A stretch of 39,181 nt of DNA from Actinomycetota bacterium (GTDB taxonomy: Bacteria > Actinomycetota > Thermoleophilia > Solirubrobacterales > Thermoleophilaceae). Where the stretch lies: positions 1 through 39,181 of the forward strand of contig JAFAQQ010000011.1 in assembly GCA_019246335.1 (NCBI GenBank). Reading direction: 5' to 3'. The notes beneath the pieces were generated by a model. That model had not been told where the DNA came from, did not search any database, and saw only the letters and a list, made by a program, of their open reading frames with translations. Shown one piece after another: positions 29,681-32,185 of this stretch (its first letter is position 1; each line of letters starts with the position of its first letter). Both the position numbers and the translations under genes were made by a program.

Positions 29681-30946
29681 TCATGCCGGCGCCGGCTCGC
29701 CGATGGGCGCCACCGCGTCGCCGTCGTAGGCCGCCAGCGCGGGGAACATCGCCGCGACCAGCGCGACGCTCGCCACGCAGGCGAGCCCTCCGGAGACGAC
29801 CGAGAAGCGGGGCGACGCCGCTGAGGCCACGGCGCCGGCCTCGATGTCGCCAAGCCGGGGCCCGCTCGCCACCACGAGGCTGAACACCGACGACATCCGT
29901 CCACGCATGCGGTCCGGCGTGAGCGACTGCGAGATCGTGCTGCGACAGACCGCGCTGACGCTGTCCGCCGCGCCGGCGACCGCGAACAGGAGCGCGGCGG
30001 GCGCGAGCGCGGCGGTCAACCCGGCGGCGGCGATGGCCAACCCCCAGACCGCCACGGCCGCGAGCACGATCCGGCCCAGGTAGCGCGCGTGCTCGATCCA
30101 ACCGGTGCTGAGCGCCGCAACCGTGGCGCCCGCGGACACCGCCGCGAACAGCACCCCGGTCCCCCCGGCACCCGAGTGGTAGACGGTGAGCGACAGCACC
30201 GGGAACAGAGCGCGCGGCATGCCGAAGGTCATGGCCGCGAGGTCGATCGCGAAGCTTCCAACGAGCGCCTCACTGCGGCGCACGAAGCGCAGCCCGTCGC
30301 GGATCGAGCGCAGAACCGGGTCGTGGCGCTCCTCGCCGATCGGCCGCTGCGGGGACATCGCCGCCGCGGCCGCCACCATGCCCAGGCAACTCACTGCGTC
30401 GGCGATATAGACCGCCTGAACCCCGCTGCTCGAGATCAGCAGGCCGCCGACCAGCGGGCCGGCGACCATCGTCACCTGGTAGAGGCCGAACATGAAGGAG
30501 AGCGCTGAGCGCAGGCGGTCTCCGCTCACCACGTTGGGCACGATCGCGGTCCGCGTGACGCGCTCCATCCCGGCGGTGCCGGCGCTGGCGCCGGCGAGCA
30601 CATAGAGCAGCCAGACCGGCGGCGACCCAGCGAGCGCCGCCGCGGCCAGGCCGCTTGCCACCAGCACCAGCGCGACCTGGATCGCGAGGAGCAGGCTGCG
30701 GCGGTCGTAACGGTCGGCCAGCGCGCCGCCCAGGAGCGACGCCGTGACGAGCGGACCCAGCTCGACGAGGCCCAGGAGCCCCGTCAGGAAGGGAGATCGG
30801 GTGAGCACGTAGAGCTGAAACGGCAGCGCCACGAGCGCCGCCTGCGTCCCGAGCCCCGTGACGGCGGCGCCGTATGCGAGCAGGCGCAGGTCCCGCGACT
30901 CGCGCAGGGGCCGGGTGTCGACGGCTATGGAGCGGAGACGGCGGAT
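29681..30946 (-). CDS. MFS transporter (EntS-like); full-length start proposed at AUC 30946
   Basis: LPFQLYVLTRSPFLTGLLGLVELGPLVTASLLGGALADRYDRRSLLLAIQ. The ORF track starts at GTG 30832, inside TM1. The same frame upstream reads (ATC)RRLRSIAVDTRPLRESRDLRLLAYGAAVTGLGTQAAL. Confidence 0.75.
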   Translation of the reverse strand: MRRLRSIAVDTRPLRESRDLRLLAYGAAVTGLGTQAALVALPFQLYVLTRSPFLTGLLGLVELGPLVTASLLGGALADRYDRRSLLLAIQVALVLVASGLAAAALAGSPPVWLLYVLAGASAGTAGMERVTRTAIVPNVVSGDRLRSALSFMFGLYQVTMVAGPLVGGLLISSSGVQAVYIADAVSCLGMVAAAAAMSPQRPIGEERHDPVLRSIRDGLRFVRRSEALVGSFAIDLAAMTFGMPRALFPVLSLTVYHSGAGGTGVLFAAVSAGATVAALSTGWIEHARYLGRIVLAAVAVWGLAIAAAGLTAALAPAALLFAVAGAADSVSAVCRSTISQSLTPDRMRGRMSSVFSLVVASGPRLGDIEAGAVASAASPRFSVVSGGLACVASVALVAAMFPALAAYDGDAVAPIGEPAPA

Positions 30947-30961
30947 CCGCCTATTTAAGAA

Positions 30962-32185
30962 TCAGGCGGGCGCCCGCTCCCGCTGTCCGATCGCGGCGTA
31001 CACCGCGTCGCGCAGCGCCTTCTCGCGCGGGTCGTCGCGGAGGTGGAAGCCGAGGCGGTTGGGGGCGTAGGCGAACCCGAGCCCCAGGTCCGGGTCCGCG
31101 AACCCGAACGACCCGCCCGCGCCCGTATGTCCGTAAGCGCGATCGGTCGCGCCGAACCGGAACAGAGGCGACGGACGGAGGAAGCCGAGCGAGAACGCGG
31201 TCTCCACGCGGAGGACCAGGTCGTGCGCTCCGCCGCTCGGCGTCGAGGGGGGCGCGCTGAGCTCGTCGAGGGTCGCGTCCGCGTACCCGACCGCCTGGCC
31301 ACCCGTGGCCAGCTCGCCGTAGACGGCCGCCACGGCCCGCGGCGCTCCAACCCCGGTCGCGGCCGGCAGCTCGACCGCGAGAAACCTGCGCGCGGCCAGA
31401 TCGGCGGGCCCCCGCAGCCTGGGGTTGCCGAACGCGCGGTAGGTGAGCGAGCCGCGGCGGACGAAGCCGAGGACCATGCCGCGTGGCATCACATCCATGT
31501 GCAGAAGGACCTCGGCGCGCCGGTAGGCGCGCACCTGGGCGACCCGGTCGTCGGGGATCTCATCCGGGAGCCCGAAGTAGAACTCGACGCCGAGCGGCCC
31601 CGCGATCTCCTCGGCGAAGAAGCGCCCGAGGCTGCGGTGCCGGGGGTCGACCCGGCGCATCAGCTCCCCCTCGTAGAAGCCGAGGCTCAGGGCGTGGTAG
31701 CCCTGGCGCGTCCCGGGCTCCCAGGCCGGACGCTGCTTCGCGATGGCCGCGGCCACCCGGTCGAGGTCGCCAAGGATCGCGGCGTCGAGCGGCTCGTCGA
31801 TCGCGCAGAGCCCTCCCTGGTGCGCCAGCAGCTGACGCACCGTGATGCGTTCCTTCCCGTTCTGCGCGAACTCGGGCCAGTAGGCGGACACGCGCTCGTC
31901 GTAGTCGATGTAGCCGCGGCTGTGGGCAAGCGCAACGGTTGCGGCCGAGAGTCCCTTCGAGGTCGAGTAGACGATGACCAGCGTGTCCTCGGCCCACGGT
32001 GAGCGCTCCGCCCGATCGCGGTATCCGCCCCACAGGTCCACGACCTTCTCCCCGGCCAGGTAAACGGCACAGGCGGCGCCGAGCTCGCCACGGTCGCGGA
32101 AGTTCCGGCGGAACTCGTCGGCCACCGGCCCGAAGCCCGGGGCCACGTCGCCGCCGAGCGGCGGCTTCGCGGGAGCGACGGCCAT
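30962..32185 (-). CDS. Serine hydrolase, beta-lactamase/esterase EstB-like family
   Basis: VYSTSKGLSA (SxxK), RVSAYWPEFAQNGKERITVRQLLAHQGGLCAID, YGHTGAGGSFGFADPDLGLGFAYAPNR; ATG at 32185. Confidence 0.88.
   Translation of the reverse strand: MAVAPAKPPLGGDVAPGFGPVADEFRRNFRDRGELGAACAVYLAGEKVVDLWGGYRDRAERSPWAEDTLVIVYSTSKGLSAATVALAHSRGYIDYDERVSAYWPEFAQNGKERITVRQLLAHQGGLCAIDEPLDAAILGDLDRVAAAIAKQRPAWEPGTRQGYHALSLGFYEGELMRRVDPRHRSLGRFFAEEIAGPLGVEFYFGLPDEIPDDRVAQVRAYRRAEVLLHMDVMPRGMVLGFVRRGSLTYRAFGNPRLRGPADLAARRFLAVELPAATGVGAPRAVAAVYGELATGGQAVGYADATLDELSAPPSTPSGGAHDLVLRVETAFSLGFLRPSPLFRFGATDRAYGHTGAGGSFGFADPDLGLGFAYAPNRLGFHLRDDPREKALRDAVYAAIGQRERAPA

Follow-up and report, generated by a model that had tools for sequence, protein, structure and literature searches.

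The gene of an MFS transporter on the minus strand of the window (the whole stretch of DNA analysed, 39,181 nucleotides of contig JAFAQQ010000011.1, from a soil actinobacterium) was found to be a conserved gene without a canonical start codon. Comparison with related genomes suggests that its native start was most likely lost at a junction with the upstream gene, either real or made by assembly, a reading in which we have about even confidence. An ATC codon stands where many orthologues start. The gene is not good evidence of AUC initiation on a leaderless mRNA, a proposal that is poorly supported; a genuine AUC start, for which Streptomyces infC is the known analogous case, is possible but unproven. 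Weak initiation at a rare AUC start and loss of the start where two genes were joined are not distinguished by the evidence.

Start region of the MFS gene

The minus strand from 30964 to 30944 reads TGA TTC TTA AAT AGG CGG ATC, and after the ATC (30946-30944) it continues with CGC CGT CTC CGC TCC ATA GCC GTC GAC. The features of this region are as follows.

30962..32185, minus strand: upstream serine hydrolase gene of the beta-lactamase family (PF00144; Pfam E = 2e-54)
30943..30965, minus strand: junction without counterpart in relatives, from the end of the beta-lactamase-like homology to the beginning of the MFS homology
30953..30958, minus strand: TTAAAT, proposed -10 (1.8 bits on the genome's own leaderless -10 matrix)
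30947..30952, minus strand: AGGCGG, Shine-Dalgarno-like (5/6 to AGGAGG), badly placed with zero spacing to the ATC
30944..30946, minus strand: ATC codon, in the position at which 10 orthologues start with TTG or GTG (from the sequence and the start alignment)
30926..30928, minus strand: ATA, alternative near-cognate start six codons inside the ATC (from the sequence)
30830..30832, minus strand: GTG, first canonical in-frame start (residue 39, inside the MFS domain), rejected as the true start
29681..30946, minus strand: MFS transporter reading frame from the ATC to the stop (421 codons plus stop; Pfam MFS_3/MFS_1; 78% amino acid identity to congener G001)

Read from the ATC, the frame matched Pfam MFS_3 (E = 5.5e-31) and MFS_1 (E = 6.2e-28); the two scores were 108 and 98 bits, against curated cut-offs of 27 and 33.4. 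The TGA of the beta-lactamase-family gene (30964-30962) is in the MFS frame and lies 15 nt before the ATC. The initial annotation had reported that no ATG, GTG or TTG occurs in frame between this TGA and GTG 30832. This was confirmed and extends to any frame, as the only such codons on the minus strand from 31010 to 30827 are GTG 30832 and GTG 31003, the latter within the beta-lactamase-family gene. Because no frame nearby holds a canonical start, none would be revealed by correcting an indel error, and a frameshift masking one was ruled out. The frame proposed earlier, the TTAAAT at 30958-30953 and the six bases (AGGCGG) between it and the ATC were likewise found on the minus strand as claimed.

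No usable Shine-Dalgarno sequence at proper spacing was found for the ATC, the best such hexamer, AGGCGG, directly abutting the codon. A 12-bp palindrome at the ATC, GGCGGATCCGCC, was considered and set aside as unremarkable, since the window holds 44 such palindromes. ATC, ATT and ATA together account for ~3% of codons in gene-start regions, so that a near-cognate codon in this position is no great coincidence.

Orthologue starts and selective constraint

Among 232 genomes of the order, 44 gave strong matches to the MFS gene. Starts were compared over 31 distinct 5' ends, taken from the order-wide matches and from loci collected earlier, with codon positions counted from the conserved D of 'IAVD..PLR'; the ATC of the window is at -9. 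It was found that a canonical start stands exactly at -9 in 10 of the 31 distinct orthologues (GTG in L025, L030 and L044; TTG in L029 and L032-L037), the remaining starts lying at -4 to -18. Position -9 is the modal start, and the ATC falls exactly there. The gene combines a near-cognate codon at the orthologous start position with the lack of a canonical start at a conserved N-terminus.

The initial annotation had also considered an ATG-to-ATC substitution and asked whether relatives carry ATG here. The comparison argues against it: the aligned codon is TTG or GTG, ATG being found at -9 in none of the 31, which means that two changes are needed to reach ATC. The near-cognate codon itself is not conserved, ATC being present at -9 in none of the orthologues compared. 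The MFS gene of congener G001 has AGC at -9, CTG at -10 and GTG at -16, and the CTG belongs to a CTGA overlap between this MFS gene and the gene before it. In the window, the 14 codons that precede the conserved D include six that differ from a canonical start by one change.

The GTG at 30832, where the gene track begins the gene, had been regarded as too far in, and the present results agree. The MFS_1 match starts at residue 24 (counted from the ATC), so that a start at residue 39 cuts into the domain. Against G001, pN/pS was 0.29 for the codons from ATA 30928 to GTG 30832 and 0.32 for the rest of the gene. Because a start there would cost part of the domain, and because the preceding codons are under the same constraint as the remainder, GTG 30832 was ruled out, and the comparison indicates that it is not the biological start. 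The orthologue starts together with pN/pS point to a historical translation start upstream of GTG 30832 and near the position of the ATC. As the track's start truncates a conserved transporter, re-annotation is worthwhile.

Junction with the beta-lactamase-family gene

Blast similarity to the beta-lactamase gene of the congeners ended at 30966, and similarity to MFS genes started at ~30942. The ATC lies inside a ~23-bp stretch common to no relative compared, and consequently the relatives say nothing on which base stood at 30944. The beta-lactamase-family gene was found in both congeners (G001 and G002). G002 has a convergent gene after it and no MFS gene; in G001 the two genes are on separate contigs, with different sequence after the beta-lactamase-like gene. 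The upstream neighbours of the MFS gene vary among the relatives compared (for example, a secreted-type gene in G001), and in no relative examined does the beta-lactamase-like gene adjoin it. These comparisons indicate a point missed in the initial annotation, namely that the ATC sits in the junction of two genes lying apart in congeners. The ~23-bp stretch may mark a genuine rearrangement or, less likely, a join made in assembly.

We suggest that an intact, conserved MFS gene came to lie 15 nt behind the beta-lactamase-family gene, and that the joining, by genomic rearrangement or, less likely, in assembly, would have removed or replaced its native start codon and promoter. The MFS gene, without a promoter of its own, would then share a transcript with the beta-lactamase-like gene. 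Any protein made from it would stem from ribosomes that terminate at TGA 30962-30964 and re-initiate at a low level. The simplest site for this would be the AUC 15 nt downstream, where initiation would be as inefficient as is usual for such codons. Start loss would not be unique here, as ~10 of 846 well-scored genes (1.1 Mb) have no usable canonical start. Against it stands the MFS frame, intact over 421 codons with pN/pS of ~0.3 versus G001; such an intact, constrained frame implies that the loss would be recent or that the gene is still translated. The position of the ATC exactly on the modal orthologue start also speaks against start loss, with a chance of ~3% for ATC, ATT or ATA.

Leaderless signal of the genome

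The leaderless signal was learned from 118 stretches of the window's genome plus the window itself (1.11 Mb), in which genes were called by codon usage. In total 1040 genes were called; the 941 with an upstream in-frame stop were used for learning, and 846 were well-scored. TANNNT was found to peak sharply 6-9 nt before starts (130 of the 846 well-scored genes versus 9.8 expected), the leaderless signal of the genome being TANNNT 6-9 nt before ATG or GTG. By this signal, ~15% of the genes look leaderless. Strong leaderless geometry was observed in the window at 2041(-) (TACGAT-7-ATG), 2158(+) (TAGATT-6-GTG), 3700(+) (TAGCGT-8-ATG) and 32767(+) (TAACCT-8-ATG).

The fitted -10 matrix has A at position 2 in 93% of cases, and TTAAAT scored 1.8 bits on it, compared with 6-9 bits for real sites and 8.6 for TAGACT. 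TTNNNT showed no enrichment at the leaderless distance (7 observed versus 7.1 expected), and TTAAAT itself occurred at the leaderless position in none of the 846 genes. AT-only hexamers were slightly over-represented at this distance (4 versus 0.9 expected over the same genes). The 162 leaderless starts comprised 83 GTG, 76 ATG and 3 TTG, TTG being depleted compared with other genes (p = 0.007). ATC was found behind good -10 boxes in 3 of 453 in-frame cases near gene starts, compared with 1.0% for other sense codons and 13.6% for ATG; genome-wide leaderless usage of AUC was thereby rejected within the available power.

No TANNNT-type -10 box is present 6-9 nt before the ATC of the MFS gene. 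The earlier statement that its geometry is the same as that of other putative leaderless genes was correct for the distance (6 nt) and incorrect for the motif, since the genome uses TANNNT and not an AT-only hexamer. AT-rich hexamers are poor evidence for leaderless promoters where the genome's own signal is TANNNT. Overall, the observation made on the sequence was confirmed, and its interpretation was supported in part.

Other genes without a canonical start

The ~10 start-less genes include a frameshifted YceI gene, an FdhA-like gene, a few CTGA-overlap candidates and a DUF2127 membrane protein. The YceI-like gene (L129, ~8820) is split by a frameshift, due to an assembly error or a pseudogene. 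In the FdhA-like gene (L128:6447-9071) the frame starts behind a TGA whose context is NQARI-TGA-HSSTVPGLGTSFGRG, and this TGA is probably a selenocysteine codon.

The DUF2127 gene of the window's genome (L077:4283-5170, contig C22) has no in-frame canonical start; ATC stands where L223 has GTG, with a weak TATAGC 7 nt upstream. Many DUF2127 orthologues of the order (L220-L249) have TANNNT 6-9 nt before ATG or GTG. In L224 (genome G022, contig C64, ~15085) a good -10 box TAAGGT is followed after 6 nt by ATA, with no ATG, GTG or TTG before the conserved domain. L224 is a better candidate for a leaderless near-cognate start (AUA) than the MFS gene, a lost start through an isolated substitution, or an error, being equally possible. 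The candidates for AUH starts (AUC, AUA) are the MFS gene (AUC), the L077 DUF2127 gene (AUC) and the DUF2127 gene of the family member G022 (AUA). That a few genes of this actinobacterial family would use such starts, on mRNAs that are leaderless or coupled, seems improbable to us.

We counted 36 CTGA overlaps, versus 85 GTGA and 29 ATGA. CTGA overlaps were discarded as proof of CUG starts, as in many of them a canonical start lies within about a codon; the remaining CUG-start candidates are the anti-sigma RskA genes in L141, L153 and L088. The CTG in the CTGA overlap is the best-placed start in L003 (the MFS gene of G001), L141:10449, L153 (~1605) and L088 (~3305), and from their layout CUG starts in translational coupling are possible at these overlaps.

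Alternative explanations

IF3-sensitive near-cognate starts act as brakes on expression elsewhere. That the MFS gene has a genuine AUC start, retained as such a brake on an mRNA with a leader or with translational coupling, was considered rather unlikely. This reading is in line with the ATC lying at the modal orthologue start (10/31), with the constraint on the frame upstream of GTG 30832 and with the DUF2127 gene (L077), a second gene of this genome having ATC where an orthologue has GTG. The MFS gene of G001 is also without a start at the -9 codon and may use the CTG in its CTGA overlap. Actinobacterial precedents are the ATC of Streptomyces infC and the GTC of sigR (PMC5472188), and with a Shine-Dalgarno sequence ATC initiation was low but above background in M. 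smegmatis (PMC4633059). However, AGGCGG has zero spacing, no relative compared has ATC here, and switches from AUG to near-cognate codons are extremely rare: among 61,358 ancestral AUG starts, switches to 1 AUU and 2 CUG were reported, AUC not being mentioned (PMC5622118). Coupling of the AUC to the upstream stop is possible. A true AUC start of the protein would be one of the rare near-cognate starts in genes other than infC; if the mRNA were also leaderless, the mycobacterial rule that leaderless initiation needs AUG or GUG would be contradicted. A leaderless mRNA that starts at the AUC, with TTAAAT as its -10 box 6 nt upstream, as proposed in the initial annotation, is very improbable. The distance fits that of real leaderless genes here (6-9 nt), which are numerous in this genome, but the score of TTAAAT, the chance-level frequency of TTNNNT, the background level of ATC behind true -10 boxes and the restriction of leaderless starts to ATG or GTG in 159 of 162 cases all argue against it. 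In Mycobacterium, reporters at the leaderless position initiated with ATG and GTG only, ATC being the negative control (PMC4633059).

A single-base sequencing or assembly error or a strain variant, turning ATG into ATC in an otherwise ordinary gene, is unlikely. ATC is one change from ATG, and the assembly is fragmented and of metagenome type (227 contigs), with at least one frameshifted gene (YceI, L129). Nevertheless, the codons of the orthologues are two changes away, and closeness to a canonical start is not distinctive, being shared by the six of 14 codons noted above. Initiation at ATA 30928 or at a more internal CTG, or a beta-lactamase/MFS fusion made by reading through TGA 30962, is quite improbable. 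A start at the ATA would yield MAVDTRPLRESRD and leave the conserved core intact, the TGA and the MFS gene share a frame, and CTG starts in CTGA overlaps are plausible in some genes of the genus; but the ATA has no Shine-Dalgarno-like hexamer at 3-10 nt and no -10 at a usable distance, and neither a fused orthologue nor a relative with the two genes adjoining was seen, which argues against read-through.

Comparison with known systems

The infC gene starts with ATT in E. coli and with ATC in Streptomyces, and is autoregulated by IF3 (PMC5472188). As in infC, an AUC or AUU occupies the start position of a conserved bacterial gene; in contrast to infC, which is leadered and conserved, the AUC of the MFS gene is found in one genome only and without a usable Shine-Dalgarno sequence. 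The infC genes of the order (L174-L203), read in the hope of a positive control for AUU/AUC starts, did not provide one, since a conserved GTG was present at the N-terminus in 28 of the 28 relatives' genes read (the window genome's own infC not included). This conserved GTG, unlike the ATT/ATC of E. coli and Streptomyces, suggests that IF3 autoregulation by the start codon may be absent in this order.

Streptomyces sigR starts with GTC (PMC5472188). Like the MFS gene, it is an actinobacterial gene whose annotated start was wrong, and its true start is an NTC codon. Unlike the MFS gene, which is known from sequence alone, sigR has a strong ribosome-binding site, is functional and was proven by mutation and protein sequencing.

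In Actinobacteria, where leaderless genes are common, TANNNT ~12 bp upstream marks such genes (PMC3160421, PMC4633059). The genome of the window uses this system, at 6-9 nt and in ~15% of genes, whereas the MFS gene has TTAAAT and AUC and departs from it in motif and start codon alike.
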